From Fundidesulfovibrio soli (lineage in GTDB: Bacteria > Desulfobacterota > Desulfovibrionia > Desulfovibrionales > Desulfovibrionaceae): a DNA stretch of 64,000 nt. The notes under the pieces were generated by a model. The model was not told the origin of the DNA and searched no databases. It saw only the letters and a list, made by a program, of their open reading frames with translations. Shown here in pieces: positions 2,101-20,326 of this stretch (its first letter is position 1; each line of letters opens with the position of its first letter). Position numbers and translations under genes: made by a program. The stretch lies in NCBI RefSeq assembly GCF_022808695.1, contig NZ_JAKZKW010000001.1, forward strand, positions 1 to 64,000, written 5' to 3'.

Positions 2101-2805
2101 CTAGCGCAACCGCTCACCAAGCCGGGGGCAGGATACCTGGTAGCTGTCCATTGAGCGGAGGAGGGGAGCTATCTCTTTGGGGTCCGTGATGCTTGGGTGG
2201 TGCTTCTCCTTGACTGGGGGAAGGGCTCCGAGCAAATCGCTGGCGGGGTTACGGTCAGCCCTGCCTGTGGCTATGGCATAGCGGAATACCTGCCCGCAAT
2301 TCTGCAAGGCCCGGTGAGCCGTCTCGATCCGCCCGCGTGCTTCGATTCGCTGAACAACTGTGAGTAACTCCGGGGCCAGGATGTCTCGGATAGGTCTGTT
2401 ACTCACCCAAGGGAAAATATCTTTCTCGAAGCGACGGATGATCCTGTCGGCATGGGAGGGGCTCCAGGTGGGCTGAAACTTGCCGAACCATTCGCGGGCC
2501 ACGCGCTCGAAGGTGTTTTCGTCAATCTCCGCTTCGGCTTTTTGGGCCTTCCGCACTTCTCCAGGGTCAATCCCTTGAGCAAGAAGGCTGCGGGCTTCAT
2601 CCCGGTGTTCCCTGGCGTCCTTCAGGCTCACGTCAGGGTAGACGCCAAGAGAGAGCATCTTTGCCTTGCCGTTGAAGCGATATCTGAAGCGCCAACGCTT
2701 CCCGCCATTTGGGGAGATTTCCAGGCTCAGGCTTCTTTCGTCAGCGATGCGGATAAGTGTAGGGCCGGGTTTTGCGTTTCTCACCGCTAAATCTGTAAGC
2801 GCCAT
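2101..2805 (-). pseudogene. Tyrosine-type integrase, C-terminally truncated by IS (island A)
   Basis: Residues 1 to ~223 match the N-terminal DUF4102 arm-binding and core-binding domains of the intact island integrase at 18868-20097 (MALTDLAVRNAKP against MPLTDVAVRNAKP). Homology stops at about 2136, where the type 2 IS begins; the last ~12 codons are read from the IS. The whole catalytic domain (R, HxxR, H, Y) is absent, so it is inactive. It starts at ATG 2805 behind GGAGG. The upstream arm-type motifs GTTACTCAC suggest an older, related island with a distinct specificity. Confidence 0.9.
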
Positions 2806-2935
2806 GTGAGTAACCTCCGGGGGCTAAGGAGGGCGCGGCTTGCCAGAGTTACTCACGCATCTTTTGCCTGAGGTGGATGCGGAAAATTGGACAGTTCGCT
2901 AAGCTGGAGTCCTCAAGCGAGGAGGACGGTCTACG

Positions 2936-3220
2936 ATGTCCAAGCGAAGGAAGTTTTCTGCGGAGTTCAAAGCCAAGGTGGCCCTGGAGGCTTTGATCGG
3001 CGAATTGACCTTGTCTGAACTGGCGAGCAAGTACGACGTGCATCCCACGATGATCGCGTCTTGGAAGCGTCAGGCCAAGGACGGTATGGTGTCGGCATTC
3101 TCCGGAAAGGCCGCTGCCGTGAAGAAGGATGGCGAGGCTGAGATTCGCGATCTGCACGCGAAGATCGGCCAACTGACCGTGGAAAAGGATTTTTTGGAGA
3201 GAGCCTTCGCTCGACGGTGA
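2936..3220 (+). CDS. IS3-family transposase OrfA (type 1)
   Basis: This 94-residue HTH subunit of the complete element has an N-terminal HTH (KRRKFSAEFKAKVALEAL) and a C-terminal coiled coil ending in [12 protein letters not shown]. The -1 frame is open across the T-run near 3190-3195 into orfB, so an OrfAB fusion by programmed frameshifting is possible. It starts at ATG 2936 behind GAGGA. Confidence 0.92.
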   Translation: MSKRRKFSAEFKAKVALEALIGELTLSELASKYDVHPTMIASWKRQAKDGMVSAFSGKAAAVKKDGEAEIRDLHAKIGQLTVEKDFLERAFARR

Positions 3221-4071
3221 GTCGGGAGCGAAGGCGTGGGATGGTCGAAACAGGTCATCCAAGGCTCAGTATTTCCCGGCAATGCCGGATGCTCGGCTTG
3301 CCCCGGTCGACATGGTATCATCGCCGCAAGGGAGAGAGTGCTATGGATCTTGGGCTGATGCGTCTGATTGATGCCCAGTTTCTGGAGACGCCCTTTTACG
3401 GTTCGCGGCAGATGCGGCTCCATTTCAAGAATCAGGGCATCCTGGTGGGGCGTGGGCGAGTTCGGCGTTTGATGCGCAAGATGGGGCTGACGGCGATTTA
3501 CCAGAAGCCCAGGACCAGCGCCCCGCACCCCGAGCACAGGATTTACCCGTATCTCTTGCGAGGACTGCGGATTGATCGACCGAATCGCGTGTGGTGTGCG
3601 GACATCACGTATGTGCCGATGAAGCGGGGATTCTTGTATCTGGTGGCGATCATGGACTGGCACAGCCGGGCGGTGCTGTCCTGGCGGCTGTCCAACACCA
3701 TGGACGCGGACTTCTGTGTTGCGGCCTTGGAAGAGGCCTTGAATCGACACGGAGTTCCGGAAATCTTCAACACCGACCAGGGAGCGCAGTTTACCAGCCA
3801 GGAATTCACTCAGACCCTCAAAAACGCCGGAGTGGCCATTTCCATGGACGGCAAAGGGCGCTGGATGGATAACGTCTTCATCGAACGCCTGTGGCGCTCG
3901 GTGAAATGGGAATGCCTCTACCTGAGAGAGCTTGAAACCGGCAGCCAGGCGCGACGTGCGCTTGAGCACTGGTTCCATTTTTATAACGAACAGCGACCGC
4001 ATACCGCCTTTGACGGACAGCGGCCCATGGACGTCTACCGGGAAGGAACGGCCTCCCAGAAGGCGGCATGA
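3217..4071 (+). CDS. IS3-family transposase OrfB (type 1), DDE integrase
   Basis: The 284-residue catalytic subunit has an HTH_21-like segment ([15 protein letters not shown]), then an rve core. The acidic triad appears as CADITY, FNTDQG and the glutamate of [10 protein letters not shown]. The family's C-terminal YNEQRPH motif is also present. It starts at GTG 3217, overlapping the orfA stop in the -1 frame. Length and motifs look intact, so this is probably the element able to mobilise its relatives. Confidence 0.93.
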
Positions 4072-4146
4072 TAATCAACCGGACTTTAGCTTAGAAACGC
4101 CGCCAACCTGTCCAACCTACCGGGACCACCTCAGCCGTCCTTCGCG

Positions 4147-4167
4147 GTTACTCACAGAGTTACTCAC
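4147..4167 (+). repeat. GTTACTCAC arm-type repeats of island A
   Basis: GTTACTCAC occurs at 4147-4155 and 4159-4167 (12-bp spacing). It recurs at 2848-2856 just left of the inserted IS and inverted at 2806-2814 at the truncated integrase start. The intact integrase locus has the parallel motif GTTACCCGC in the same relative positions and spacing. By analogy with other tyrosine recombinases, these are probably arm-type binding sites for the island A integrase. Confidence 0.6.
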
Positions 4168-4192
4168 AAAAAAAGTGGATGTCAAAGGACTG

Positions 4193-4301
4193 AAACGGAC
4201 GAAGGCGGCCCTTGCGGCCCGCCTTTTCCTTGAAATTCCTGGGGGTTTTGGACTTTATTGGACTTGGTTGGAAGTCCTGTTGGTGGGGCGGGGGGAGTCG
4301 A
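4193..4301 (+). repeat. Island attachment repeat, left copy (contains tmRNA 3'-end fragment)
   Basis: This stretch of about 110 bp is nearly identical to 20217-20326. Its right end (TGGTGGGGCGGGGGGAGTCGA, 4281-4301) is a slightly degenerate copy of the tmRNA 3' terminus (20305-20326). It therefore marks the distal attachment site of the 16-kb island and, at the same time, the former tmRNA-proximal end of the older island on its left. A GC-rich hairpin (AAGGCGG/CCGCCTT) lies at 4202-4228. Confidence 0.85.
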
Positions 4302-4325
4302 GTCTGTTGCATAATTTACTGAATT

Positions 4326-4760
4326 TTAAAAATAAATTGTTTTCAACGTAATTAAGTTACCCGCGAAGTTACCCGCCTGGAAGTGCTCTTGTCCCTCAAC
4401 TGCCGATCCCCTAGCGCCGAGCAAACAATCCTTTTTCGGGTGGGAATCTCCGAGAATATAAGGGGGGGGTACCCCCCCCTGGCCCCCGTTCAGTGGTTCC
4501 ATCCGCCCCGCGTTGTCGCTTGCGAAACGTCCGGGGAGGGGATAAATGGCTTCGGCTTTTGCGAATAGTTGGCTCAAGACGATGAAGCCGTGTGGGGTAG
4601 AGCGATCCCTGGGTGACTTCATTGGGGCTAGTTGGGTGGTCTTCTCGTAGGCCTCTTGGTCAACCCCTCTGAGGTCGATGTTCTGGTCCTTCGCTTTCGA
4701 GATTCTCGCATAACTAAGAGGCATGGCTTTCATCTCGCGCAAATGCGTTGCTGTCAGCAA
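4326..4760 (-). CDS. Uncharacterised short reading frame at island left end
   Basis: This open frame of 144 codons is not recognised. It contains the 20-bp palindrome at 4461-4480 (encoding GGVPPPY) and ends inside the AT-rich stretch beside the att repeat. Start choice is unclear (ATG 4760 or 4733), and neither has a good ribosome binding site. The N-terminal half looks more protein-like than the C-terminal half, so it may be a decayed gene or non-coding. No function is suggested. Confidence 0.3.
   Translation of the reverse strand: MLTATHLREMKAMPLSYARISKAKDQNIDLRGVDQEAYEKTTQLAPMKSPRDRSTPHGFIVLSQLFAKAEAIYPLPGRFASDNAGRMEPLNGGQGGVPPPYILGDSHPKKDCLLGARGSAVEGQEHFQAGNFAGNLITLKTIYF
4356..4376 (+). 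repeat. GTTACCCGC arm-type repeats, left island end
   Basis: Two copies of GTTACCCGC (4356-4364 and 4368-4376, 12-bp spacing) lie about 55 bp inside the left island boundary. The same motif with the same spacing occurs beside the integrase gene at the other end. These are probably arm-type sites bound by the N-terminal domain of the island integrase. Confidence 0.6.
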
Positions 4761-4921
4761 TTTGTGTACTTATGCAACAATCAAAAACAAGAATATGATC
4801 AAATCCCTGGTGTTAACCAGGGCAAAACACTCCACAGCATGTCAACGAGGTAATGAACAGCCTATGGTGTTCGCATAAGTAACTGTGTTTGCAACACCGA
4901 TCAGATCAAAGGAGAAGACAT

Positions 4922-5428: not shown

Positions 5429-5849
5429 CCACCGATGATACTGAGGTCGCTTGAAGGATGGCTGGTGAAGTGTCCAGCGATTGTCCGATGCATGTCCACA
5501 ACGTGTCCGATCTTGTCCGATGCTGTCCACAACGTGTCCGATTTTGTCCGAAGTGACAGATGAAACACGCATCCCGAGTACCGTAATCTGGGAGTTTCGG
5601 TCTATGGCCTCGTCCGGGAATCACCGTGGTTGCTTAATTTCTATATTCCAAGGAGTCAGGGTAGGCCTGAAATCGAGGTGGAGATTCCGAAGCTTAAGAA
5701 GACCACGCAGGCAGTTGGCCCCGCCCTTTAAAAAGGTGTCAGAGTGAGGCCGGGGATGGCATCCAGGTTCCATCCACCGGGGGAAGGTTCACGGGCAACT
5801 TCCAAGCGCAGAAAGGTGGTCCGGTCTCCGGTCTGTGACGACTGTAGGT
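5429..5849. other. Intergenic region with phased TGTCC array
   Basis: There is no convincing gene in these 420 bp between the end of the CPxC protein and the 3' end of the leftward gene at 5850. The region holds the phased TGTCC array (5471-5549). No clear terminator or promoter was seen in the remaining ~300 bp. Confidence 0.5.
5471..5549 (+). repeat. Eight TGTCC motifs phased at 10-11 bp
   Basis: TGTCC begins at 5471, 5482, 5493, 5504, 5514, 5524, 5535 and 5545, so the spacings are 11, 11, 11, 10, 10, 11 and 10 bp. Part of this is a tandem duplication of a 31-32 bp unit (5481-5512 and 5513-5543). The phasing matches the DNA helical repeat, so all copies lie on one face of the helix. This is typical of a cooperative protein-binding array, or of a transposon end with multiple transposase sites. 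The binding protein is unknown. Confidence 0.7.
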
Positions 5850-6413: not shown

Positions 6414-6590
6414 GATTCAATTGTGTGGCAAGATCTATTTATGATCATCTCTCTTTGGTTGATTCAATTATGACTTCATCGAAAATTATTATTCATGTAG
6501 GTTGGAGTTGAATTCGGATGGCGTGACATGGTATTTCTCTAAACAATGACAAGACCCAGCTTGCGCATGGGGAAAAACACAAACTATTAC

Positions 6591-7310
6591 TCAATACGAC
6601 CAATCCTCATGCCTCACCGGCAACTGGTTGAGTTGCTCCCGGTGGAACCTCCACTTTGGCATGAGCCGGTCCATGAGGTCGACAAATCGTGAGTTGTGGG
6701 TGGGTTCCACTAAGTGGGCCAGTTCATGGACGACGAGGTACTCCAGGCAGTCCTTGGGCTTCTTGGCGAGGTCGGTGTTGAACCGGATGCTCCGGGTCGT
6801 GGGGTTGCAACTTCCCCATCGGGTTTTCATCCTGCGCACGGAAAACCGTTCAAGCTGAACCCCAAGGCGTTTCTCCCACTTTTTGATGAGTGGGGTAGCC
6901 GCAGCTTTGACTTGGCCCCGATACCACCCTTCGACAATATCCTGCCGCTTGTTTTCATCCGTTCCGGGGCGGACCCTCAAGGTCATCGTGCGGTGCTCAA
7001 GCTCAACACGGGGGACCTCATCCTCTTCAACCACTCTCATGAGATAGCGCCGTCCCCAAAGGAAATGGCTCTCTCTCTCTAGATACTCGCGCGGCGTTTC
7101 GCGTTCCTGGTCGCGGAACTTCGCTTGCTGCTTCCTGATCCAATCGAGCTTCGAGATGGTGAAGACGCGGATGGTGTCCAGGTCCATGCGCGACGGTGCG
7201 GCAACGCGGACCTTTCCGTGCGGGGGATAGACACTCAAGTGAATGTTCTTGATGTCCTTCAGCACAACATCCACCTCGATCTCGCCGAGGCTGATCCTGG
7301 TGACCATCAA
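6591..7310 (-). CDS. YgjP-like zinc metallopeptidase (DUF45 / M48-related)
   Basis: This 239-residue protein belongs to the YgjP/SprT-like family often found beside type I restriction genes. The zinc-binding motif HELAHLVEPTH covers residues 195-205, preceded by the family signature MKTRWGSCNPTTRSIRFN. The N-terminal half is a beta-rich YgjP domain. Its ATG overlaps the hsdR stop by 4 bp (7307-7310), so it is the last gene of the hsdMS operon and probably translationally coupled. Its substrate is unknown. It may process or turn over a component of the restriction system, which is inference from linkage only. Confidence 0.9.
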   Translation of the reverse strand: MMVTRISLGEIEVDVVLKDIKNIHLSVYPPHGKVRVAAPSRMDLDTIRVFTISKLDWIRKQQAKFRDQERETPREYLERESHFLWGRRYLMRVVEEDEVPRVELEHRTMTLRVRPGTDENKRQDIVEGWYRGQVKAAATPLIKKWEKRLGVQLERFSVRRMKTRWGSCNPTTRSIRFNTDLAKKPKDCLEYLVVHELAHLVEPTHNSRFVDLMDRLMPKWRFHREQLNQLPVRHEDWSY

Positions 7311-10300
7311 TATTCGCCCTGCGCCTTGATGATTAGGAAGACGCGCTCCACCTCTGCCGTGTCGCCGTCCAAGATCGGCAGCAGCGCCGCCTTGATGATG
7401 TTCTCCTTGGCCAAGTGCTCTCGCCAGCCATCTGGGCGTATGTTCTTGACCGCGTGATCCACTTTCAGGGCCAGCTCCTCGTCCTGCTTCAGGTTGTTGT
7501 ACAGCGCCCGCTTGCCAGCCGTGTCCAGCGACTTCGGGGTCTCTGGAGATTGCCCGGCTTCCACCTTCACTGCCAGTTCTGCGATGCGCTTCAGGTACTC
7601 CTCGTATTCGATGGCCTTCGCCTTGCGGGCGGCGATGATTTCGTCCAGCAGCGCGGACATCTTTTCGAAGTAGTCTGGGTCGCTCAAGTGCTCCTTGATG
7701 ATCTTCCTGCGGACGTTGTTCTCGATGGTCTCGGCGACTGCGTCCTTGTTGCCTTTGATCCCACCCAGGCGGTCGTTGATGGCCCGGGCGATGCCGGTCT
7801 TCACGATCAGATCCAGCAGTCCCAGATTGTCGAAGGGGGAAATCTTCCTCGGTTCGTCAGCCTCGATGTAGGTGTCGATCAAGTGCCGCATGTCGGCCTC
7901 GTACGCCTTCAGATCGAGTTCTTCCCCGCTGGCCTTGCGGATAATCTCCCGGAGATTCAGGAAGTGGTTCATCTGTTGCCTGAAGCGGCCAACATCGGCT
8001 GCCGTGTAGCCTGCCGACTCCATCTCGTCCGCGATGTTGGCGTAGGCGCGGACCAGGGCCACGATGGCCTTGTAGAGCGCTGCCCGACGGGGCTCCCGCT
8101 CCTTCAGGTCCGAGGGGATCTCCGTGTTGCCGCAGAAATAATGGATATGCTCCAGCTCGCCCTTTGGGGGCTCCACTGCCTCACAGAGCAGGATGACGGC
8201 TTCCAGGGCGTTATCGAGCCGCACCTTCCCTTTTTTGAGGCGATCCTGCAGGAGCACTTCAGGGCTGGCACCTCCCGCGCTGTGGTCCAGCTCGGAGGTG
8301 TAGACGGCGATGGCGTTCTCGACCTTGTTGAACAGGTCCTTGTAGTCCACGATGTAGCCGAAGTCCTTATCGTCGCCGTCCAGCCTGTTCGTGCGGCAGA
8401 TGGCCTGAAACAGGCCGTGGTCCTGCATGGATTTGTCGATGTAGAGGTAGGTGCAGGACGGCGCATCGAAGCCGGTGAGCAGCTTGTCCACCACCACCAG
8501 CAGCTTCATGTTTGCCGGTTCCTTGATGAACAGCCCCTTGGCCCATTCTTCGTAGGTTTCGGTCTTGGTCATTCCCGGTTTGGCTTCGACATCCTTCAGC
8601 AAATCGATGTAGGTATTGTAGAGGAACTGTTTGTCGGTCTCCGTGTTCGCTCCGGTCTCTTCCCTGGTCACATCCTTGGCTTGCGGGTTGTAGGAGGTCA
8701 CCACCGCGCATTTGCCTTTGAAGGGCGTCTTCTGGAACAGGGTGTAGTATTTGCACGCCTCGTAAATGCTGGAGGCCACGAGTATTGCGTTGCCGCGATT
8801 GTTGGACAGCCGGGGCCTCACGCTGAAGTCGAACACGATGTCGTTCAGGACCCGCTCCATGCGCGACCTGGAGGACAGCACGTTCCGCATGGTGCCCCAC
8901 TGTTTCTTCAGCTCGTCCTTCTGCCAGTCGTTGAGACCCCTGGTCCTCGCTTCGAACCAGGCATCAATTTTCTCTTCGGAGCCAAGCCGCTGGTCGATGT
9001 CCCGCGCCTCGTAGATGAGATCCAGCACGACCCCGTCCTCGACGCCCTCGCTGAACTTGTAGGTGTGGATGTAGCCGCCGAACACTTCCAGGCTGGTCTG
9101 CTTGTCCTTCTTCAGGAGGGGCGTGCCCGTGAAACCGATGAACACTGCGTTGGGCATCATGGCCTTCATGACACGGTGCAGCTTACCGGTCTGCGTGCGG
9201 TGGCACTCGTCCACGAAAACGAACACCTCGCCCACGGTCTGGCTGGGTGCTGCTTCAAGCTCCTTGATGAAGGCGTCGAAGTCGTCCACGTCCTTGCGGC
9301 CAAACTTGTGAACCAGGGAGCACAAGAGGCGTGGCGTGGCCTGACCAAGTTGATTCATCAAATCCCGCCCGCTGCTGGTGCGCTTGATCGCCTCGCCCGC
9401 TTCCTTGAAGACGCGTTCGATCTGCTTGTCCAGCTCGTCGCGGTCGGTGATGATCGCCACGCGGGCGTTGGGGTTGTTCTCCAGTATCCACTTGGCCAAG
9501 AGAACCATCACGATGCTCTTGCCGCTGCCTTGGGTGTGCCAGATGATGCCGCCCTTTCGCTCGCGGACATGACGCTGCGCGGCTCTGATCCCGAAGTACT
9601 GGTGGACGCGGGGCAGCTTCTTCACCCCGCCGTCGAAGAGCACGAAGTCGTGCATCAGCTCGATCAGCCGGTCCTTGCTGCACATCTTCAGCAGGTACTT
9701 GTCCAACTTGAAGCGGGTGTTGTCCTGCTCGTCTTCCTTCCATTTCAGGAAGTACTTCTCCGGGGTGCCAACGGTCCCGTATTGCATTCCTTCGGAATCG
9801 TTGCCCGCGAAGATGAACTGCACCGTGCTGAAGAACCATGCATTGAACTCGGGTAGCTGGTTGGAAAGATTCTGGCGGATGCCGTCGCCGATGGAGGTGC
9901 GGCTGTTCTTCAGCTCCAGTACGCCGATGGCGATGCCATTCACGTAGAGCACCAGATCAGGACGCCGGTTGAGGTTGCCTTTGAGAGTCACCTCCTCCGC
10001 GATGGCGAAGTCGTTCTTTTGCGGGTCCTTCCAGTTGATGAGGTGGACGGTTTCGGTCGGCTGGCCTGCCTCGGTCTTCACCGGCACACCATAGCGCAGC
10101 AGGCTGTAGACGGCCTGGTTGTTCCCGTAGAGGCTACGCCCGTGATTGTTGGCCTCTGTGCGCAGCATGTGAATGGCCCTGCTGATTTGGGCAGGGGAGT
10201 AGCCGCTCTTGGTCAGGTGGGCTTCAAGCAAACCGTCCTCGACGTTGGTGTTGCCTTCGCGGTCTGACCAATCGCCCAGGTAGCGGTACCCCAGCTCGTC

Positions 10301-10360
10301 GCGGAACAGGGTAATGACCCGGTTCTGGGTGACGCGTTCCGGCTTGCCGATGTCGGTCAT
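7307..10360 (-). CDS. hsdR: Type I restriction enzyme R subunit (HsdR)
   Basis: The 1017-residue motor and nuclease subunit cuts DNA after ATP-driven translocation when bound to HsdM2S. An N-terminal PD-(D/E)xK nuclease shows RPDLVLYVNG...ELKNS near residues 135-155. Walker A GSGKS lies at 278-282, followed by a DEAD-like box DECH and helicase motif FTGTP. An RecA2 domain (TGFDAPSCTYLYIDK) and a helical C-terminal region complete it. The length is typical. It starts at ATG 10360, overlapping the upstream ATPase gene by 4 bp, and overlaps the metallopeptidase gene downstream. All core motifs look intact. Confidence 0.96.
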   Translation of the reverse strand: MTDIGKPERVTQNRVITLFRDELGYRYLGDWSDREGNTNVEDGLLEAHLTKSGYSPAQISRAIHMLRTEANNHGRSLYGNNQAVYSLLRYGVPVKTEAGQPTETVHLINWKDPQKNDFAIAEEVTLKGNLNRRPDLVLYVNGIAIGVLELKNSRTSIGDGIRQNLSNQLPEFNAWFFSTVQFIFAGNDSEGMQYGTVGTPEKYFLKWKEDEQDNTRFKLDKYLLKMCSKDRLIELMHDFVLFDGGVKKLPRVHQYFGIRAAQRHVRERKGGIIWHTQGSGKSIVMVLLAKWILENNPNARVAIITDRDELDKQIERVFKEAGEAIKRTSSGRDLMNQLGQATPRLLCSLVHKFGRKDVDDFDAFIKELEAAPSQTVGEVFVFVDECHRTQTGKLHRVMKAMMPNAVFIGFTGTPLLKKDKQTSLEVFGGYIHTYKFSEGVEDGVVLDLIYEARDIDQRLGSEEKIDAWFEARTRGLNDWQKDELKKQWGTMRNVLSSRSRMERVLNDIVFDFSVRPRLSNNRGNAILVASSIYEACKYYTLFQKTPFKGKCAVVTSYNPQAKDVTREETGANTETDKQFLYNTYIDLLKDVEAKPGMTKTETYEEWAKGLFIKEPANMKLLVVVDKLLTGFDAPSCTYLYIDKSMQDHGLFQAICRTNRLDGDDKDFGYIVDYKDLFNKVENAIAVYTSELDHSAGGASPEVLLQDRLKKGKVRLDNALEAVILLCEAVEPPKGELEHIHYFCGNTEIPSDLKEREPRRAALYKAIVALVRAYANIADEMESAGYTAADVGRFRQQMNHFLNLREIIRKASGEELDLKAYEADMRHLIDTYIEADEPRKISPFDNLGLLDLIVKTGIARAINDRLGGIKGNKDAVAETIENNVRRKIIKEHLSDPDYFEKMSALLDEIIAARKAKAIEYEEYLKRIAELAVKVEAGQSPETPKSLDTAGKRALYNNLKQDEELALKVDHAVKNIRPDGWREHLAKENIIKAALLPILDGDTAEVERVFLIIKAQGEY

Positions 10361-11868
10361 GTTCCACCCTGTTCCTTTTCAAGAGTCTCCAGCACCCTCT
10401 TTCCCTGGTCCGTGAGCCGGTAGCGCTGTTTGCTGCTCCTGGGCTTGTCGGGGCTGGTCATCTCGATGGTCCCTGCCTCTAGGGCCGGGAGGAGGTAGTT
10501 CTTGCGGAAGTTCTTCTCGTCGCTCAACCCCAATGCCTTCTGGAGGTCGATCCGGCTCACCTCTCCCGCCATGGCCCGCACTACTTGGACAACTGCGGGG
10601 GTGACTTCGGGGGTGACTTCGGGGGTGACTTCGGGGGTGACTTGCTGGGTGGGGACAACGGGCCTGCGCCACAGCGTCGTGGTGAAACCATCGGAGACCG
10701 CGAACTCGGGTTCGGGCAGGGCAGCCTCGCGGCAGCGCCGGATCATGTCACCCGTCCCCGTTCCCATGCGTTCTATGTATTTCGCCAGATACAGCGGCTC
10801 GGCCAGCAGAGGGTTTCCCGGCACCGACCCATGGGCATGACGCAGCTTTTCCAGGGTCAGCGAGGGGGGAAGCGTGCCAGGGTTCCAGATTTCCAGCCTG
10901 TTGGCGAAGAGCATCACCTGCACGCTGCCGGAACTGGTGTAGTCGCGGTGCGCCACCGCGTTGACGATGGCCTCGGCCACCGCATCGCGCGGGATTTCAT
11001 ACTCCACCGGGGCTTCCGGGCCAGCCTCGCGGGTGCCCACGCGCAGATTGATCTTGGACATGACGAAGTCCACGGCCTGATCGACCAAATCAAAGACCGT
11101 GCCCCTGTAGACTTGGTACGACGGGATCGGCTTGGCGACCTCAACACCGTGGAAATGGGCGCACTTCACTTCCGAGGAGATCAAGAATCGCTGCGGCTGA
11201 CGACCGAAGAGCAACACAGCGGCATTGGCGAGGCTGCCCCGGTCGAAAAGATTCAGATGGGTGAGCAGCTCGGCGGGGGTGGCCTCCTCCGGTAGGGGGA
11301 AGTTGCGGGCCAGCCGGGCGCGACGGATAAACATGCTCATGCGTTCCGCGTCCAAATCGTCCAGGGTGGCCTTGGGACAGGCGGACGCGTCGAAGGGGCC
11401 GGTGCGGATCAGCTCCTTGGCTTCCAGGTACTGGATCAACGCGGCATACATGTTCGTGACCAGCTCCGAAGCCGAACCGAAGCTGCGGCGGACAAGCTCG
11501 GCTTCTGCGCGCCGGATCAAGGCCAGCATCTTAGGGTGGCGCGAGGAGGCGTCGGCGCTTTTGATGAAGATCAGACGGTGCTTGTGGAGCAGCGTGGCTT
11601 GGTCGAACTCCCGCTGGGTGGGGGAGACGCCTTCGGGGTCCTCGTAGCCGTAGTCCAGGCCGAACAGGCCGACGTAGATGGCGCAAGCAGCCACTTCATC
11701 CAGGTAGACATGGTCGGCCCGTCTGTCGGCGGCGGGGATGTCCTCGAAGAGGAACGGGGAGAAAAACCGCCGCATCAGCGGGTCGCCGGTCAGGAAGGTA
11801 AGGAGCGCGGCCCGCTCGGCGGCGAACTCCTTCTGCACACTGCTGATGAAGAGGCGGATTGGTTTCAT
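10357..11868 (-). CDS. DUF4062 / RecG-like ATP-binding accessory protein in RM operon
   Basis: This 503-residue protein starts with a DUF4062-type domain (KPIRLFISSVQKEF, about residues 1-110). It continues with a helical region and a GHKL-type ATP-binding segment (EAIVNAVAHRDY, about 285-400) like the C-terminal domain of RecG-like transcription regulators. A VTPE repeat linker at 409-424 is followed by a winged-helix C-terminus. It overlaps hsdS and hsdR by 4 bp each, so it is an integral operon member. DUF4062 proteins often occur in stress and defence gene sets. A regulatory or nucleotide-sensing role in the restriction system is inferred. Confidence 0.85.
   Translation of the reverse strand: MKPIRLFISSVQKEFAAERAALLTFLTGDPLMRRFFSPFLFEDIPAADRRADHVYLDEVAACAIYVGLFGLDYGYEDPEGVSPTQREFDQATLLHKHRLIFIKSADASSRHPKMLALIRRAEAELVRRSFGSASELVTNMYAALIQYLEAKELIRTGPFDASACPKATLDDLDAERMSMFIRRARLARNFPLPEEATPAELLTHLNLFDRGSLANAAVLLFGRQPQRFLISSEVKCAHFHGVEVAKPIPSYQVYRGTVFDLVDQAVDFVMSKINLRVGTREAGPEAPVEYEIPRDAVAEAIVNAVAHRDYTSSGSVQVMLFANRLEIWNPGTLPPSLTLEKLRHAHGSVPGNPLLAEPLYLAKYIERMGTGTGDMIRRCREAALPEPEFAVSDGFTTTLWRRPVVPTQQVTPEVTPEVTPEVTPAVVQVVRAMAGEVSRIDLQKALGLSDEKNFRKNYLLPALEAGTIEMTSPDKPRSSKQRYRLTDQGKRVLETLEKEQGGT
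10597..10644 (-). repeat. Four tandem 12-bp units encoding VTPE linker
   Basis: The 12-bp unit GGGGGTGACTTC (plus strand) is repeated four times, the last with one change. It encodes VTPE-VTPE-VTPE-VTPA in the linker between the ATP-binding and winged-helix domains. Perfect in-frame 12-bp units can expand or contract by slippage without breaking the frame. Confidence 0.9.
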
Positions 11869-13043
11869 ACCAGCCGGATTCTCCCGGTGAGGAGTTCCTG
11901 CATCATGCCTTGCTTGATCTGGCGGGCCTTGGAGAGCTTTGACTCCAGGGTGGAGAGTTCGGCGTCCATGTCAGAGAGGACGGTGGCGATGGCTTCTTGT
12001 TCGGGGATAGAGGGCAGCGGGATTTCTGTCTTCTTCGCTCCAGAAATTGTATAGGTTCCGACCGTAGTACCAGCAGACGCATCGGTAATTTGTTTCATGA
12101 CTATCGTGGTCAAATATAGCTGTCGAAGGAACTCAACTGACACCTTCCCACCGATCTTAAACCAAATGATGTTCCCGTCCTTGAAGTAAAATTCTTTATC
12201 GTCGGTCACAGTGAAAACTTTTCCCAGGGTTCCCACACCAGTCACAAGCATATCACCGACGCTGGGCACACCATGAACACTCCTAAACGATTCGTACAAC
12301 GATTTCGTAATAAACAGGTCGTTTTCTACATGGCCTGCTTCACCAAGGATCGCTAGTTCCCTGGCACGATAGAATGGCACCCCATCTGACTTCCAGTCGC
12401 GCTGAAAAACACGTTTGCTGGATGTAATCTCGAATAGCTCTCCCAGCCTCTTCACTTCCCACTCCCCACTGAACCCCGGCAACCGCCTCTTCCCAGTCAG
12501 CAACTCCTGCATCGCCCCCTGCTTGATGCTCCGCTTCTTGGCGATGAGTTGCTCCAGGGATTCGATGAGGGCGTCAGCATCGGAGAGTGCGGTGGCGATG
12601 ACGCGTTGTTCATAGTAATGCGGAGTTGCGACTTTAATTGGATAAATAAAGTTCCTGTTGAGCGATTGCTGAGCTCCGCCGGAGTTGTGGCTGGTGAAAT
12701 TGATATGGCTAATATAGTAAAATGTGAAGAGTGGGTCGTTTCCAAGAAAGTTGGTTACATACAGAGCTGTGTTGTGAGGCCAATAGTCGTCTTTGCAGTA
12801 ATGAACTTGACCAAAAGAAGCCCCGCTTCGACCGACAATGACTCCTGGACCCTTCGCCAGCGCAGTATCGTGAAACCCATTTTGGCCTGCCGAGCCCATG
12901 ACAGGGATATTACCCGGACAACGCATTCGGTCTGTTAAATCATGGCCTCGCTGGAGAGCCACAAAATCACCGAGAACGCCAGCTTTCCAGTCCTCCGGGA
13001 TCACCCCGACCTCTGTCTGCTTGTAGCCGGGCTTCACGTCCAT
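11865..13043 (-). CDS. hsdS: Type I restriction-modification specificity subunit (HsdS)
   Basis: This 392-residue subunit sets the DNA target for both methylation and cleavage. It has two target recognition domains, each followed by a conserved helical spacer: SIKQGAMQELLTGKRRL after TRD1 and QIKQGMMQELLTGRIRL after TRD2. The TRDs (about 12.60-12.95 kb and 12.05-12.45 kb) are visibly AT-richer than the spacers, consistent with exchange of recognition domains. Its start overlaps the hsdM 3' end by 10 bp, and its stop overlaps the DUF4062 gene. The recognition sequence cannot be read from the protein. Confidence 0.95.
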   Translation of the reverse strand: MDVKPGYKQTEVGVIPEDWKAGVLGDFVALQRGHDLTDRMRCPGNIPVMGSAGQNGFHDTALAKGPGVIVGRSGASFGQVHYCKDDYWPHNTALYVTNFLGNDPLFTFYYISHINFTSHNSGGAQQSLNRNFIYPIKVATPHYYEQRVIATALSDADALIESLEQLIAKKRSIKQGAMQELLTGKRRLPGFSGEWEVKRLGELFEITSSKRVFQRDWKSDGVPFYRARELAILGEAGHVENDLFITKSLYESFRSVHGVPSVGDMLVTGVGTLGKVFTVTDDKEFYFKDGNIIWFKIGGKVSVEFLRQLYLTTIVMKQITDASAGTTVGTYTISGAKKTEIPLPSIPEQEAIATVLSDMDAELSTLESKLSKARQIKQGMMQELLTGRIRLV

Positions 13044-15433
13044 GAGAACCCCATCCTCTCCAGGTGCTTGTTCACCCTCTCTTCCAGTTCAGCCACGCGG
13101 CTGACCATCTGCGGCAGCGGGGCTTCGTACCGTTCCGCCAGTTCCTTCACCCGCTGGGTGAGCGACTGGCTGACCCGGTCCATCTCGCCGTGGATGGCCC
13201 CGACCAGCGCGGCAAGCCATTTGTCGTCCACCACCAGCGACTGGACATCGGCCTCGGTGAGCTTGGGATACTTGGCGTAGGCCAACGCGTCGAGATTGGT
13301 CTCGGCCTCTTTGAGGCTCTTCTTGAGGTCAGCCTCTTCCTCGTTGAGCTTCTTCCACTGTCCCAGCACGGCGGCCTCTTCCTTGGCCTCCTTGTCGCCC
13401 TTGATCTCCTTCAGCCGGGCGGCGACGTTGGCCTTGTTCACCTTGTCGAGTTCGGAGAACGCCCCGTCATCGCCCCCGTGTTCCTCTTCCAGTTCGGCCA
13501 TGCTTGCGCTGACGGCCTCCAGGTCGGCTGCGAGCTGGTCAACGGCCTCCTGCTCCTTGGCGAAATAGCGGGCCACGACCAGTTCCTTGGGCACAAGGTC
13601 GCAGGTCCATCCCTTGTCCTTCTCCTTGCCCTGCTTGTTCTTCACGATGATGCGGCTGGTCTCGGCCTTCCACCCGTCGGAAGCGATAAGGTAGCAGTCA
13701 TCCTGCATGGTCTCGGCCCAGTAGTTCATCAGGTGCTGGTAGACGTCGTAGGGATTGATGAGCGGCTTGCCGGTATAGTGGGTGAGCAGGTCCTCGGCCA
13801 GCGCAGTGATGACCTCCTTCGGGTGGCAGCCGAACTGCAACTGTTTGAGCGTTGCGGCACTCTTCTGCCTCCAGGCGTCGAAGTGGGCGTTCATGCCGGT
13901 AATGAAGTCTGCGAACTGGGAGTGCTCGTAGATGGCCGACTTGATGACGGCCTTGTCCACGGCGAGGTCCAGGTAGCCGGGGCGGTTGTCCTTGAACAGG
14001 GCCTGCTTGAGCTGCGGGCAGACGTCCCAGTAGCGCTGGAGGGCATTCACGTCGGCAACCGGGATGCCGCCCTTCAAGTGGCCCTCGATGTCCTGGAGGT
14101 CCTCGGCCTGCTGGCTGTCGATGTAGCGAGGCAGGTTGAGGTTGAACTCGTTCTTCTCAATCTCCTCCACTGGCACCATGCGTGAGTATCTGGGGACCTC
14201 GATGCACTTGTTGAAAACGTCCACGATCTTGTGGATGTCCTGGTCGCGCAGACGGTTCTTGGGGCCATCCTTCATGAAGCCCGAACTGGCGTCGATCATG
14301 AAGACACCCTTGCGGGCATGGGCGTCCTGCTTATCCACCACCACGATGCAGGCTGGGATGCCCGTGCCGTAAAAGAGGTTCGCGGGAAGGCCGATGATGC
14401 CCTTGATGTAGCCCTTTCGGATGAGCGCCCGGCGAATGTCAGCTTCTGCGTTGCCCCGGAACAGCACGCCGTGCGGCAGAATGCACGCGCCCTTGCCCGT
14501 GCTTTTGAGCGAGCGGATGATGTGCAGCAGGTAGGCGTAGTCGCCCTGCTTGGCAGGAGGCGTGCCGAACGGCTGGAAGCGGTCGTAGGGGTCGTGCAGC
14601 GGGTCGATGCCGGTGCTCCAGCGCTTGTCGCTGAAGGGCGGGTTGGCGACCACGAAGTCGAAAGTCTTGAGGGTGTCGCCTTCCTTGAAACGTGGCGAGG
14701 CCAAGGTGTTGCCCTGCACGATCTCGGCGGTGGGGTTGTTGTGCAGGATCATGTTCATGCGGGCCAGACCGCTGGTGGCCGCGTCCTTCTCCTGCCCGTA
14801 GAGGGTGACATTAGTGGTGGCCTCGTCGGCGACTTTGAGCAGCAGCGAACCCGATCCGCAGGTGGGGTCGTAGACCGTCGTGGTGCTGGTCGTCTGGGCG
14901 TCACGGATGCCGATGATCTTTGCCATGATGCGGCTGACCTCGGCGGGGGTGTAGAACTGGCCCTTACTCTTGCCGCTCTCCGTGGCGAAGTGGCGCATGA
15001 GGTATTCGTATGCGTCGCCCAGAATGTCGTCGCCGTCGGCGCGGTTCTTGGAGAAGTCGAGGGCCTTGTTCTCGAAGATGGCGATGAGGTTGGTCAGTCG
15101 CTCCACCTTCTCCTTGCCGGTCCCGAGCTTGGTGGCGTCGTCGAAGTCCGGCATGTCGGAGAGCTTGTTGGCGTCGGCCAGCGGGGCGATGATCTTCTTG
15201 TTGATCTGGTCGCCGATGTCCGGCTTGCCCTTGAGCGCCACCATGTCCGCGAAGCTGGCCCCCGCTGGGATTGTGATGGGCGCAAACGGCATGCCCGCAT
15301 ACTTGTCGCTGACGTACTTGATGAAGAGCAGGACAAGGACATAGTCCTTGTACTGACTGGCATCCATGCCGCCTCGTAGTTCGTCGCAGGACTGCCAGAG
15401 GGAGGAGTAGAGTTCGGACTTCTTGAGAGCCAT
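13034..15433 (-). CDS. hsdM: Type I restriction-modification methyltransferase subunit (HsdM)
   Basis: The 799-residue N6-adenine methyltransferase subunit has a helical HsdM_N domain (MALKKSELYSSLWQSCDELRGG). The SAM-binding motif DPTCGSG lies at residues 189-195 and the catalytic motif NPPF at 264-267. A long C-terminal coiled coil (about 600-790) is rich in Glu, Lys and Ala. ATG 15433 is preferred over a start 31 codons upstream because the family begins there and a purine-rich AAGGAAA precedes it. It is the first gene of the five-gene leftward operon. It is longer than the ~500-residue E. coli form, but such long HsdM proteins are common. Confidence 0.95.
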   Translation of the reverse strand: MALKKSELYSSLWQSCDELRGGMDASQYKDYVLVLLFIKYVSDKYAGMPFAPITIPAGASFADMVALKGKPDIGDQINKKIIAPLADANKLSDMPDFDDATKLGTGKEKVERLTNLIAIFENKALDFSKNRADGDDILGDAYEYLMRHFATESGKSKGQFYTPAEVSRIMAKIIGIRDAQTTSTTTVYDPTCGSGSLLLKVADEATTNVTLYGQEKDAATSGLARMNMILHNNPTAEIVQGNTLASPRFKEGDTLKTFDFVVANPPFSDKRWSTGIDPLHDPYDRFQPFGTPPAKQGDYAYLLHIIRSLKSTGKGACILPHGVLFRGNAEADIRRALIRKGYIKGIIGLPANLFYGTGIPACIVVVDKQDAHARKGVFMIDASSGFMKDGPKNRLRDQDIHKIVDVFNKCIEVPRYSRMVPVEEIEKNEFNLNLPRYIDSQQAEDLQDIEGHLKGGIPVADVNALQRYWDVCPQLKQALFKDNRPGYLDLAVDKAVIKSAIYEHSQFADFITGMNAHFDAWRQKSAATLKQLQFGCHPKEVITALAEDLLTHYTGKPLINPYDVYQHLMNYWAETMQDDCYLIASDGWKAETSRIIVKNKQGKEKDKGWTCDLVPKELVVARYFAKEQEAVDQLAADLEAVSASMAELEEEHGGDDGAFSELDKVNKANVAARLKEIKGDKEAKEEAAVLGQWKKLNEEEADLKKSLKEAETNLDALAYAKYPKLTEADVQSLVVDDKWLAALVGAIHGEMDRVSQSLTQRVKELAERYEAPLPQMVSRVAELEERVNKHLERMGFSWT

Positions 15434-15583
15434 CTGGTGGATTTTCCTTTTCTTTCTTCGCGTCCCGCCGAGCCTCGCTGGCCTCGGCAACCTGATAGGC
15501 AAACCCCATCGGCCAAAGGCTGTCAAGAATTATGGGCGGCTTGCCTGGTATGGGTGACGTACAGGCTTGCCGGTTGAAATCAG

Positions 15584-15617: not shown

Positions 15618-15644
15618 ACGCCGACCTGGATCAGGTCTGGTTCA

Positions 15645-17698: not shown

Positions 17699-17915
17699 GG
17701 TTCACCCCCTGGCCGGACGCGAGACGTTCGACAAGAGCATCAATCTGACTCTCCGGCCAAGCAACAGCACGGACCCCAATTTTAACGGGACGAGGGAACA
17801 CTCCGAGTCGGACGAGTTCAAGGAATCGGCTACGTTTGTATCCGACTCGGTTGAGGACTTCTGGAAGACGGCAAAGGCGGTCTTTGGTATGGGAAACAAT
17901 TTCCACAGAACTCAT
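17691..17915 (-). CDS. AlpA-family DNA-binding regulator / excisionase
   Basis: The 74-residue winged-helix protein is of the AlpA/MerR-like excisionase type, with RLPEVLNRVGYKRSRFLELVRLGVFPRPVKIGVRAVAW carrying the HTH and wing. AlpA proteins in P4-like and tmRNA-type islands activate the integrase or assist excision. AAAGGAGA lies 5 bp before ATG 17915. It is the first gene of a three-gene overlapping operon. Confidence 0.88.
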   Translation of the reverse strand: MSSVEIVSHTKDRLCRLPEVLNRVGYKRSRFLELVRLGVFPRPVKIGVRAVAWPESQIDALVERLASGQGVNHA

Positions 17916-18059
17916 TCTCCTTTAAGGATATAAGAGTTTGCCACCCTCATGGGGCGGAACGGTCCAGTGGATGCCAAAAAATGATGTCCGGGCATAGCAA
18001 GCCAATTTTTCTAAAAGTGGATTGCAAGCCGAGGGGAGAGGGGGTGGGGGCTACTTAAG

Positions 18060-18839
18060 CTACTTTAAGGTCAACACTCTGACTGAATTGATGCAGAGCG
18101 CTGTTCTGTTGTATAATTTGCTGAATGTTTGATGCCCTGAAACTCCATACCGCTTGTTGACTCCAGGTGAAACAGATTTGATGGTCTCTATAGCTTCAGC
18201 CAAGAAGCCAGTATTTTTTGCAGGAGGATGCACGCCCCATTTTGATTCAACGTAATCCCAAATCCAGATGCCAACTGCCCTTGGAATATTGTCAATTTCA
18301 AATGAGACGTCTTCCATTGAAGAAATTCTTCTGCGTTCTAAGGCAAATATATCACCTGGGTCACTGAAATTCATTTGTTGGTGCTCAACGACTTCTTCAG
18401 AGCCATGATACTTTTCATATTGTTCTGCTATTGACTGGATCAAAGCTTTTAGAGACACGGAGAAGTCAATTTTTGCAAGGCATTGCCCTTTTTTTAGCTT
18501 ATGTCCCTTAGGAATTCTGAGGTCTTCATCCTTTCCGTTGTACGATAAAATCGTTACATTGTTGTCGAGAAACAAAGGGTTGTCTGGGTATTGTATTTTG
18601 GATGTTCCTTCAATTACTCCCAGCATGTCAATTTTTTCTTCAAAATTATGGCAGTAATAGTCAATCCATCCATTGAAGCCCCACGATGTAAGTTTTTTCT
18701 TGTGTGCTTGTTTAACTTCATTGTCACTTGTTCGAAAAACATGTTTGATTGCATCTAAAAAGTCAGTATTCCTCTTCCCGTACTCAAAAGCCCAGAACCT
18801 GTGGAACAGGCAATAGTCTTGGTCTGAAATCAGTGACAT
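18060..18839 (-). CDS. Uncharacterised AT-rich island protein near integrase
   Basis: The 259-residue product is not recognised. Its codons are strikingly AT-rich compared with the flanking integrase and AlpA operon, indicating separate acquisition. It is aromatic-rich (CLFHRFWAFEYGKRNTDF; GIWIWDYVESKWG) with no signal peptide or membrane helix. It stands as a single gene between the integrase 3' end (28 bp) and the AlpA promoter region. Such positions in tmRNA islands often hold variable cargo, including anti-phage genes, but no domain here supports a mechanism. Confidence 0.65.
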   Translation of the reverse strand: MSLISDQDYCLFHRFWAFEYGKRNTDFLDAIKHVFRTSDNEVKQAHKKKLTSWGFNGWIDYYCHNFEEKIDMLGVIEGTSKIQYPDNPLFLDNNVTILSYNGKDEDLRIPKGHKLKKGQCLAKIDFSVSLKALIQSIAEQYEKYHGSEEVVEHQQMNFSDPGDIFALERRRISSMEDVSFEIDNIPRAVGIWIWDYVESKWGVHPPAKNTGFLAEAIETIKSVSPGVNKRYGVSGHQTFSKLYNRTALCINSVRVLTLK

Positions 18840-18867
18840 AGTGACCTGCGTTCACACCTTATTGTTG

Positions 18868-20097
18868 CTAGACGCTTGCTTGTCGCTGGAAGGGGGTAAC
18901 CTTGGCACCAGCCTTGAGTCCGTCCAGGTAATCTGCCCATGCCTGCATCATCTTGCGGCGCTCGGGCAAGAACTCGGCATAGTTGTAAGCCGCCCGGATA
19001 TTGTCACGTTCGGCGTGGGCGAGTTGGCGCTCAATGGCGTCACGGTTCCAGCCCTGCTCGTTGAGCAGTGTAGAGGCCATAGAACGGAACCCATGCCCAG
19101 TCAGTTCGTCCTTGGTGTAACCTAGACGGCGGAGCGCACCGTTGACCGTGTTCTCGGACATGGGTCTTTCCAGGGTCCGCATGGACGGGAAAAGATATTT
19201 TCCGTGGCCGGTGAGGGGGCGCAATTCCTTGATGATGGTGACGGCCTGTATGGCAAGGGGCACGATATGCTGTTCGCGCATTTTCATCTTGTGGCCTGGA
19301 ATCCGCCATTCCCTGTTCTCCAGGTCGATCTCGGTCCACTCTGCGTGCCTGAGTTCTCCAGGGCGCACGAAAACCAGCGGGGCTAGTCGCAGGGCGCAGG
19401 AGGTCACAGGTGAGCCCTGGTAGCTGTCCATGGATCGGAGGAGGGCAGGGATGGCCTTGGGGTCTGTGATGCTTGGGTGATGTTTTTCTTTGACTGGAGG
19501 GAGAGCCCCACGCAAGTCGGCGGCGGGATTCCTCTCGCACCTGCCAGTGGCTACGCCATAACGGAAGACTTGGCCGCACCCCTGGATCGTCCGGTGTGCC
19601 ATCTCCAGCGCCCCACGCGTCTCGATGCGGCGGGCAAGCGTCAGGACTTCTGGAGCAGTGATGTCTTTGATAGGCCGCGAGCCGATCCAGGGGAAGACGT
19701 TCAGTTCCAGGCGACGAAGTATTTGCGTACCGTGTTCCTCGGTCCACGTGGGTTGAAACTTGGCCCACCACTCACGGGCGACACGCTCGAATGTTTCGGC
19801 GTCCTCGGCATCTTCCGCTTTTACCGACTTGCGAACTTGCCCAGGGTCAATCCCCTGCGCGAGCAACCGACGGGCTTCGTCGCGGCGGTCTCTGGCGTCC
19901 TTTAGGGTGACGTCCGGGTAGACTCCAAGGGAAAGCATGTTCTCCCGTCCCCTTAGCTTGTAGCGCAGTCGCCACCACTTCCGGGGTTTGCCGTCCTTTC
20001 CAGCGCTCACTTCCAGAAACAGGCCACGCTCGTCCCGAAGCCGGTAAGGTTTATCTAAGGGCTTGGCGTTCCTGACAGCGACATCGGTAAGGGGCAT
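18868..20097 (-). CDS. Tyrosine-type site-specific integrase of the tmRNA island
   Basis: The 409-residue P4-type integrase inserts and excises the island at the tmRNA 3' end. An N-terminal DUF4102 domain (MPLTDVAVRNAKP) is followed by a SAM-like core-binding domain and the catalytic domain with R245 (FVRPGEL), H335/R338 (HGFR), H361 and nucleophile Y371. All catalytic residues are present. ATG 20097, with GAGG 9 bp upstream, is preferred over a start 7 codons earlier because it aligns with the broken homologue at 2805. It lies 208 bp from the tmRNA 3' end, and GTTACCCGC repeats fill the gap. Confidence 0.95.
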   Translation of the reverse strand: MPLTDVAVRNAKPLDKPYRLRDERGLFLEVSAGKDGKPRKWWRLRYKLRGRENMLSLGVYPDVTLKDARDRRDEARRLLAQGIDPGQVRKSVKAEDAEDAETFERVAREWWAKFQPTWTEEHGTQILRRLELNVFPWIGSRPIKDITAPEVLTLARRIETRGALEMAHRTIQGCGQVFRYGVATGRCERNPAADLRGALPPVKEKHHPSITDPKAIPALLRSMDSYQGSPVTSCALRLAPLVFVRPGELRHAEWTEIDLENREWRIPGHKMKMREQHIVPLAIQAVTIIKELRPLTGHGKYLFPSMRTLERPMSENTVNGALRRLGYTKDELTGHGFRSMASTLLNEQGWNRDAIERQLAHAERDNIRAAYNYAEFLPERRKMMQAWADYLDGLKAGAKVTPFQRQASV

Positions 20098-20138
20098 GAC
20101 GGGTAACCTCGCGTTCAAGGTGCGGCGCGGGGTTTGCG

Positions 20139-20191
20139 GTTACCCACCGCACTGTTACCCGCTTGCCTTCGTTACCCGCCCAGTTACCCGC
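20139..20191 (+). repeat. GTTACCC(G/A)C arm-type repeats beside integrase
   Basis: GTTACCCAC lies at 20139-20147 and GTTACCCGC at 20154-20162, 20171-20179 and 20183-20191. An inverted copy (GGGTAAC) is at 20101-20107 next to the integrase start. The last pair has the same 12-bp spacing as the left-end pair. These are probably integrase arm sites, and may also repress or time int transcription because they overlap its leader. Confidence 0.65.
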
Positions 20192-20216
20192 CGGAATGGT
20201 GGCTGTCAACGGCCCA

Positions 20217-20326
20217 AAACGGACGAAGGCGGACCTTGCGGCCCGCCTTTTCCTTGAAATTCCTGGGGGTTTTGGACTTTATTGGACTTGGTTGGAAGTC
20301 CGGTTGGTGGAGGCGGGGGGAATCGA
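20217..20326 (+). repeat. Island attachment repeat, right copy (overlaps tmRNA 3' end)
   Basis: This is a direct repeat of 4193-4301. From 20305 onward it is the functional tmRNA 3' end, so integration restored the gene. Sequence differences between the copies are few: a G/T change at 20303/4279, a one-base indel at about 20310, and A/G at about 20322. Confidence 0.85.

Follow-up and report, generated by a model that had tools for sequence, protein, structure and literature searches.

What distinguishes two related genomic islands that share one attachment site is the question raised by a tmRNA gene (ssrA) of Fundidesulfovibrio soli (assembly GCF_022808695.1). The window, meaning the whole stretch of DNA that was analysed, consists of bases 1-64000 of contig NZ_JAKZKW010000001.1 (64,000 nt). 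To our knowledge, work on how tyrosine integrases recognise their arm sites has for the most part dealt with single elements.

Anatomy of the stack at ssrA

The ssrA gene (20305..20654, minus strand) encodes the tag ANDYDYALAA, and the 3' end of the gene serves as attachment core. An earlier note on this DNA had proposed that two islands are stacked at this gene, with island B between island A and ssrA; both islands prove to be P4-type and stand in tandem at ssrA, and the order of elements along the window (A integrase, A arms, core, B distal arms, B, B integrase, B arms, ssrA) supports the placement of B. Island A is an inactivated element; island B, apparently complete, would have inserted between A and ssrA. 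The far end of island A lies off the contig. The broken and the intact integrase, said earlier to have N-terminal sequence in common, are 66-67% identical over 229 amino acids.

The intact integrase gene, intB (18868..20097, minus), encodes a P4-type tyrosine integrase of 409 amino acids with PF13356, PF22022 and PF00589; its Arm-DNA-bind_3 domain matches at 1.6e-24, and the central (PF22022) and catalytic (PF00589) domains are both present. The cargo of island B (6591..15526, minus) comprises type I restriction-modification and other genes: a YgjP-like metallopeptidase (6591-7310), HsdR (7307-10360), a DUF4062/HATPase_c_4/Fic-like_C protein (10357-11868), HsdS (11865-13043), and HsdM (13034-15526). 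The predicted arm sites of island B flank the core on both sides, with GTTACCCGC on the plus strand at 20154..20162 and as a 12-bp pair at 20171..20179 and 20183..20191, and again as a distal pair, 12 bp apart, at 4356..4364 and 4368..4376 (plus). Two further sites had been overlooked, GTTACCCAC at 20139..20147 (plus) and an inverted site, GTTACCCGT, that adjoins the intB start codon (20099..20107, minus).

In island A, intA (2131..2805, minus) retains the arm-binding domain (PF13356; Arm-DNA-bind_3 match 1e-27) and the central domain (PF22022) but has lost the catalytic domain, PF00589 being absent from IntA in a Pfam search. The broken reading frame spans 2805-2101, similarity to IntB stops at 2131, and the gene is cut short by an IS3-family element with its transposase at 1015-1800. 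An IS3-family element (transpos_IS3) also splits the arm array at 2866..4135 (plus; ends approximate, placed by eye) and contains ORFs at 2936-3220 and 3217-4071; positions 1-539 and 2866-3404 are inverted copies. The arm sites of island A read GTTACTCAC and are found adjoining the intA start codon (2806..2814, minus), at 2848..2856 (plus), and as a 12-bp pair at 4147..4155 and 4159..4167 (plus). Two more copies, also overlooked earlier, lie within intA itself (2360..2368, minus; 2398..2406, plus). Own-type motifs within int genes are enriched across the integrase set.

The positions and the 12-bp spacing first listed for these motifs are correct. The two islands differ in motif (GTTACTCAC vs GTTACCCGC), both in 12-bp pairs, and GTTACYCRC is present in 12 copies in the window, where 0.74 would be expected, a count reached in none of 100 shuffles; all 12 copies are inside the two att/int regions. 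A -35-like hexamer, TTGACA, was seen by eye at 20204..20209 (minus). Many relatives, again by eye, have this hexamer on the upstream side of their arm array. A strict promoter scan returned no promoter, and a sigma-70 promoter with its -10 overlapping the arm sites is weakly supported.

The attachment repeat is shorter than had been thought. Two repeats (4193-4301 and 20217-20326) are indeed present and are 96% identical, but only about 21 bp of the supposed ~110 bp are derived from ssrA (4281-4301; 20305-20326), and it is this 3' end of ssrA that recurs as a direct repeat where island B ends distally. The junction core (4281..4301, plus) is a copy of the ssrA 3' end minus one base (GCCCCACCA vs GCCTCCACCA). 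The remaining ~88 bp are integrase-side element DNA, because a like block adjoins two tRNA-Ser genes elsewhere in the genome. The element-borne block of island A (4193..4280, plus) has a hairpin and the sequence GGACTT...AAGTCC; that of island B (20217..20304, plus) has a terminator-like hairpin (20226-20249, minus; one found vs 0.6 expected in shuffles). An attachment core of the whole 110 bp was rejected on account of the blocks flanking tRNA-Ser genes and of the DNA past the far-end core in G199, G021, and G001C51, which differs from the block. On an empty site in relatives, whose absence had been named as a refuting condition, the answer is partial. The ssrA locus of G001 lacks both the block and an integrase of the P4-type family, but may hold other DNA, and that of G002 has a degenerate block and no integrase. 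A script for ssrA occupancy, which missed the tmRNA end in nine of 30 loci and had scant downstream DNA in two more, placed a family integrase within 1.2 kb at four of the 21 loci with the tmRNA end located, an undercount. Many loci in the viral-contig scans are cut near the integrase.

Arm motifs and the arm-binding domain

That the motif should track integrase type had been set beforehand as a refutation test; the relation held in 141 loci and was narrowed to the N-terminal arm-binding domain. Over the 9870 pairs of these loci, motif similarity has a partial Spearman correlation of 0.36 with the N-domain (0/300 permutations) and of 0.016 with the catalytic domain or body (117/300 permutations). 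Where the nearest N-domain and C-domain neighbours differ (98 loci), the motif is closer to that of the N-neighbour in 79, to that of the C-neighbour in 16, and tied in three. The training set comprised 203 loci, with 61 dropped for weak or ill-fitting motifs and two rows kept by hand, IntA and L011, the latter matching the family template poorly.

The correlation is highest at residues 41-62 (IntB numbering throughout), and the check proposed earlier, for covariation of motif bases with residues of the N-domain, points to 41, 45, 47, 52, and 54. The top covarying pairs are 52-p7, 45-p7, 47-p9, 41-p2, 54-p4, 43-p3, and 45-p8; the pairs 43-p3 and L281-p6 depend on columns that hardly vary, residue 43 and base 3 both being nearly constant. 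Among the top 45 pairs, 23 involve the N-domain, eight the central domain, and 14 the catalytic part. In 54 disjoint close pairs of loci, 47-p9, 54-p4, 56-p2, and 45-p8 head 2312 tests, a catalytic-domain column (S339-p9) is sixth, and 52-p7 is only twentieth (p 0.001). A structure model with beta strands at 38-48 and 51-60 (mean pLDDT 87) points to a location of residues 41, 45, 47, 52, and 54, which would set the motif, on these two strands.

Drift of motif and integrase together with phylogeny, such that the correlation reflects shared ancestry and no functional code, is very improbable. The loci are related, motifs fall into clustered classes, and the body too has some scoring columns; however, the body has that same ancestry yet predicts the motif poorly, the close-pair contrasts largely indicate the same residues, and the chimeras described below break the linkage. 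Equally improbable is that the motif is an operator for another protein (an excisionase or AlpA-type factor, or a repressor), with which the integrase type travels by linkage. The sites do lie upstream of int near TTGACA, and some correlation is to be expected from neighbouring DNA through linkage. Linkage does not, however, predict that the correlation peaks at alternating residues along a beta hairpin, or that the far end of an island, as much as ~18 kb away, has matching sites, and in the phage P4 attP record the core is flanked on either side by predicted sites. Own-type pairs were found at the far end in 9/53 loci, with no foreign and no reversed motifs.

Several residue-base tendencies are seen: Trp41/Leu41 with T/A at base 2, Arg54 with G at base 4, Glu52/Gln52/Arg52 with C/A/G at base 7, Lys45 with C at base 8, and Arg47/Trp47 with C/G at base 9. 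At residues 41, 47, and 52, IntA has R, R, and A where IntB has W, K, and E, a difference in keeping with GTTACTCAC in the one and GTTACCCGC in the other. The rule was written down before testing on 66 held-out proteins, none among the 203 training proteins, and gave 330/352 bases correctly (94%) in loci related to the training loci (median best N-domain identity 63%), while 500 shuffles had a mean of 64% and a maximum of 72%; every predicted base was right in only 50 of the 66. Because there is little variation at p5 and p9, correct predictions at these positions are mostly baseline (shuffles 0.98 and 0.81); without p5 the rule scored 266/287, the nearest N-domain 237/286, and the nearest body 166/287. 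Because loci with weak or ill-fitting motifs were dropped from the held-out set (46/112) as from the training set, what is known of the rule applies to clear motifs only. The single held-out case of Trp47 (L463) was wrong at p5 and p8. For phage P4 the rule predicted NRTGCNCCC and five arm sites were found (shuffle mean 0.06, 0/300), while in six more distant phages (34-42% identity) arm sites were not predicted (at best 12/300). The residue-base code is rated as new and testable, and the kind of system as already known; among the matches listed, from open-licence literature only, no title or abstract gave a rule linking residues to bases at DUF4102 arm sites.

Chimeric integrases and cassette exchange

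The earlier note had attributed the paired differences to co-divergence of integrase and arm sites. The motif does follow integrase type, but at least one change occurred by exchange of the N-domain with the arms. The ssrA integrases of G004 and G005, from the same genus, have bodies 87-92% identical to B, N-domains 83-87% identical to A and 67% to B, and A-type arms. The N-domain tree groups them with A (support 100), while the central-domain tree sets five ssrA bodies apart from A (support 99). These chimeras rule out gradual co-divergence as the only route and argue that N-domain and arm sites were exchanged together on a constant body at least once in this genus. G004 and G005 may derive from one event.

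The explanation that joins the observed anatomy, tracking, predictive rule, and chimeras is very probably correct as a whole: stacked P4-type islands in which the central and catalytic domains, the body of the integrase, would pick the shared ssrA core, while the N-terminal domain would read a 9-bp arm motif with copies to either side of that core. The outward residues of the two beta strands (41, 45, 47; 52, 54) would set that motif, and a contiguous cassette of arms plus roughly the first 60-70 codons would, at least once, have been exchanged between integrases with the same body. This presumes that Int binds the arm sites and that integration and excision work; the cassette could move in the excised circle, where both arms would adjoin the core.

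Whether the A and B arms differ in order to stop cross-talk, such that stacked islands are excised independently under selection for orthogonality, is a separate matter, and such selection is unlikely. The two arm types do differ here, a second stack (G172) has GTTGCCCCC in front and an GTTGTCCGG-type remnant behind, and by eye G003 and G006 have decayed A-like remnants behind other types. The stacks number just four, however, and for two of these the judgement relies on decayed sites; IntA is dead. Among 16 islands whose far end was located, some followed by <800 bp of sequence, a second clean arm pair within 1.5 kb was present in the window only and a second int fragment within 1.5 kb only in G172. 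Arm types are also highly diverse, so stacked neighbours would usually differ by chance. A broader extension of the cassette-exchange explanation is tentative, possible rather than probable: a simple, portable arm-hairpin code, passed among elements with the same target in a cassette of distal arms, core-side arms, and first ~65 codons, might yield orthogonal, stackable islands that do not excise each other, with own-type sites even kept inside some int genes.

Being able to predict arm sites from sequence would aid the search for attP ends in P4-type islands; with the rule, the boundaries and far ends of islands could be called, and it would suggest orthogonal integrase/arm pairs with one common target. 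The coexistence of related elements at one att site becomes testable, in that arm identity may or may not decide which neighbour excises.

Relation to known systems

The target of phage P4 is tRNA-Leu, whereas here it is ssrA. The P4 integrase and attP (X05947) are alike in domain family, in predicted 12-bp pairs that flank the annotated core, and in an inverted site before the int start; the annotated -10 overlaps a predicted arm site. Unlike the present locus, the motif is ATGCCCCC and the record holds no stacked partner. In KplE1, according to an excerpt of PMC2951348, the intS promoter and the att region overlap, and repression by Int takes place near the -10 box; that excerpt concerns regulation of the integrase gene, not divergence of motifs. 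Tandem islands of Dehalococcoides are likewise stacked, several at one ssrA with short direct repeats, but their integration module has serine recombinases, and the portion of PMC3146451 consulted contains no word starting with "arm". The IntSXT subgroup of tyrosine recombinases has the same N-terminal DUF4102 arm-binding domain; the corresponding portion of PMC8138268 treats domain gain in evolution, not arm motifs or domain exchange among close relatives, and the words "swap" and "modular" are absent from it. The best matches of the IntB N-domain in both sequence and fold are the arm-binding domains of the HPI and HAI7 integrases (PDB 3jtz, 3ju0, and 3rmp), and the entry title of 3rmp refers to the structural basis of attP substrate recognition by P4-like integrases.

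Order of elements at ssrA

The ssrA gene (20305-20654, minus strand) is adjoined by island B, whose intact integrase IntB (20097-18868) has Arm-DNA-bind_3, central, and catalytic domains. Island A has the broken integrase IntA (2805-2101), with Arm-DNA-bind_3 and central domains only. Its gene is truncated by an IS3-family element, and another IS3 element interrupts the A arm array. Read from left to right, intA is followed by the arms and block of A and then by the core; next come the distal arms, cargo, integrase gene, remaining arms, and block of B, and finally ssrA. Here the core is the copy of the ssrA 3' end and the block is the ~88-bp integrase-side part of each ~110-bp repeat. Such an order is expected if B inserted between A and ssrA, as the earlier note had proposed, and the coordinates given in that note were borne out. 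The arm sequence GTTACYCRC has 12 copies in the window, which spans the initial 64 kb of contig C1 (0.74 expected), and the pair GTTACYCRC-N3-GTTACYCRC occurs in three places genome-wide: 4147/4159, 4356/4368, and 20171/20183. P4-type integrases, arm sites, and tandem islands at ssrA are already known. A family integrase adjoins ssrA in five of the seven genomes of the genus (G000 and G003-G006); the ssrA of G001 lacks both the block and a family integrase and may hold other DNA, and that of G002 adjoins a block at 71% identity but no integrase.

The cargo of B is type I restriction-modification; between HsdR and HsdS lies a protein (10357-11868) with the domains DUF4062, HATPase_c_4, and Fic-like_C. 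B also contains a 28-bp direct repeat in two copies 31 bp apart (5493-5551, TGTCCACAACGTGTCCGAT..). At the contig end (1-2100), IS3-family fragments are nested or inverted, which probably marks a break in the assembly at repeats.

The ~110-bp repeat (4193-4301 and 20217-20326), previously described as an att repeat, does exist in two copies (96% mutual identity), but only its outer ~21 bp are the ssrA 3' end and the rest is not target DNA. By eye, a comparable block, with GGACTT...AAGTCC followed by a hairpin, adjoins two tRNA-Ser genes elsewhere in the same genome, and DNA beyond the core at island far ends in three other cases (G199, G021, and G001C51) differs from the block. These observations rule out the whole repeat as target DNA, and the block is therefore integrase-side element DNA common to A and B. 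Arm-like sites at the tRNA-Ser block on contig C4 are spelled differently again by eye (GTTACCCAG/GTTACCCGG), and a truncated integrase N-domain adjoining a tRNA-Ser gene of this genome (L010, C1:327663-327872) has GTTACCCGG-like arms. In the window, G003, G005, and G006, the far-end core copy is GCCCCACCA and that of ssrA is GCCTCCACCA; this one-base difference suggests strand exchange 3' of the distinguishing base. The blocks at 4193-4280 and 20217-20304 show just two differences by eye, though the adjoining arms differ, and the G003 copies (L210/L360) are likewise alike by eye. Such near-identity within one genome may reflect local homogenisation or donation at integration.

Arm motif and N-terminal domain

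From 218 distinct integrases, 203 had at least 150 bp upstream and at least 180 amino acids. A best repeated 9-mer score of 2.6 was reached in 152/203 real regions vs 5/609 letter-shuffled regions; 142 loci whose motif was clear and family-like were retained and 61/203 dropped, with IntA and L011 (motif clear, unlike the template) retained by hand. In the distance tests (141 loci, truncated IntA omitted), the Spearman correlation with motif distance was 0.38 for the N-terminal arm-binding domain (N-domain), 0.17 for the central domain, and 0.10 for the catalytic domain. The expectation that the motif follows integrase type thus holds specifically for the N-domain: the partial correlation was 0.36 for N given C (0/300 permutations) vs 0.016 for C given N (117/300). 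Along the protein, maxima lie at residues 41-52 (0.45) and 51-62 (0.36), with other windows at most 0.24.

The strongest covariation between residues (IntB numbering) and motif positions (p1-p9) was for 52-p7, 45-p7, 47-p9, 41-p2, 54-p4, 43-p3, and 45-p8; residue 43 and p3 are near-invariant, so that 43-p3 counts for little. Of the 45 top pairs, 22 fall outside the N-domain, with lower scores. Arg54 is accompanied by G at p4 in 33/40 loci vs 0/102 for other residues. Glu52 goes with C at p7 (79/82), Gln52 with A (11/11), and Arg52 with G (22/29); Trp47 goes with G at p9 (10/10) and Ala52 with T at p6 (6/8). A close-pair test ranked 47-p9, 54-p4, 56-p2, and 45-p8 highest and 52-p7 twentieth. 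The rule residues are on strands 38-48 and 51-60 of a predicted fold matching 3ju0, 3jtz, and 3rmp. Among the matches listed, the open-licence literature had no residue-base rule (the 3rmp entry, by its title, concerns recognition of attP substrates by P4-like integrases) and no exchange of arm domain and arm sites on a constant body.

The rule was fixed in writing before held-out loci were retrieved. These 173 loci yielded 138 distinct integrases having sufficient upstream sequence; 112 of these shared less than 90% N-domain identity with the training set, and 66 of the 112 had a usable motif, none of them among the 203 training-stage integrases. Correct bases numbered 48/55 at p2, 63/66 at p4, 64/65 at p5, 60/62 at p7, 45/50 at p8, and 50/54 at p9, a total of 330/352 (residue shuffles: mean 64%, maximum 72%), and every predicted base was correct in 50/66 loci. 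At p5 the rule was no better than shuffles (0.98); with p5 omitted, it gave 266/287, vs 237/286 for the nearest N-domain and 166/287 for the nearest body (central and catalytic domains). Below 65% identity (42 loci), it gave 168/181. Phage P4 residues predict NRTGCNCCC, which has five matches in the P4 attP record: the annotated core is flanked on either side by a 12-bp pair, and the fifth site is at the int start. Stenotrophomonas phage S1 also agrees (three sites, equalled in 1/300 shuffles). In six phages at 34-42% identity the prediction failed (best 12/300 shuffles), so the rule is claimed for the near family only.

Natural exchanges of the arm domain

In G004 and G005, the integrases at ssrA match IntB at 83-85% identity overall and at 87-92% in the central and catalytic domains; their N-domains have 83-87% identity to IntA vs 67% to IntB, and their arm motif is GTTACTCAC. 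They cluster with A in the N-domain tree (support 100), while the central-domain tree separates them, together with B, G003, and G006, from A (support 99). At sites where B equals G003 and differs from A and where the two chimeras are identical to each other, they match A at 20 of the first 28 and then B at 73 of 74, which places the break near codons 61-71. The G005 far-end sites are A-like too (GTGAGTAAG/GTGAGTAGC, by eye, one mismatch each). Both chimeras may derive from a single event. G006 (L011) has a third N-domain type with the motif GTTATACGG.

Far ends, stacks, and motifs inside integrase genes

In seven of the ten islands examined first, the far end has a 12-bp pair whose type is that of the island or close to it. 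The pairs of G005 and G006 are degenerate own-type by eye, with no further pair within the next 20 kb, and the far end of G004 is beyond the contig end. A systematic scan, sharing two loci with the first set (window B and G003), found an own-type pair in 9/53 loci, many spanning only ~10 kb of downstream DNA, and no pair of foreign motifs or of the reversed motif. A second stack, at tRNA-Ser in G172 (L221, near 18389-18800), has a GTTGCCCCC island before a remnant of GTTGTCCGG type that includes an int fragment, and G003 and G006 have decayed A-like arms behind another type (by eye). Stacks with differing arm types are too few to judge whether divergence keeps A and B separate, as had been suggested, and IntA is dead.

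Exact own-type motifs lie inside the int gene in 17/126 loci, vs a 0.7% rate for foreign motifs; with one mismatch allowed there are 81 vs 26 expected, with a maximum at codons 30-35. This excess may derive partly from the conserved VxPxGGK coding sequence. Own-type motifs inside int genes are found at 2360-2368 and 2398-2406 in intA and in loci L193, L196, L239, L026, L040, L198, and L088.
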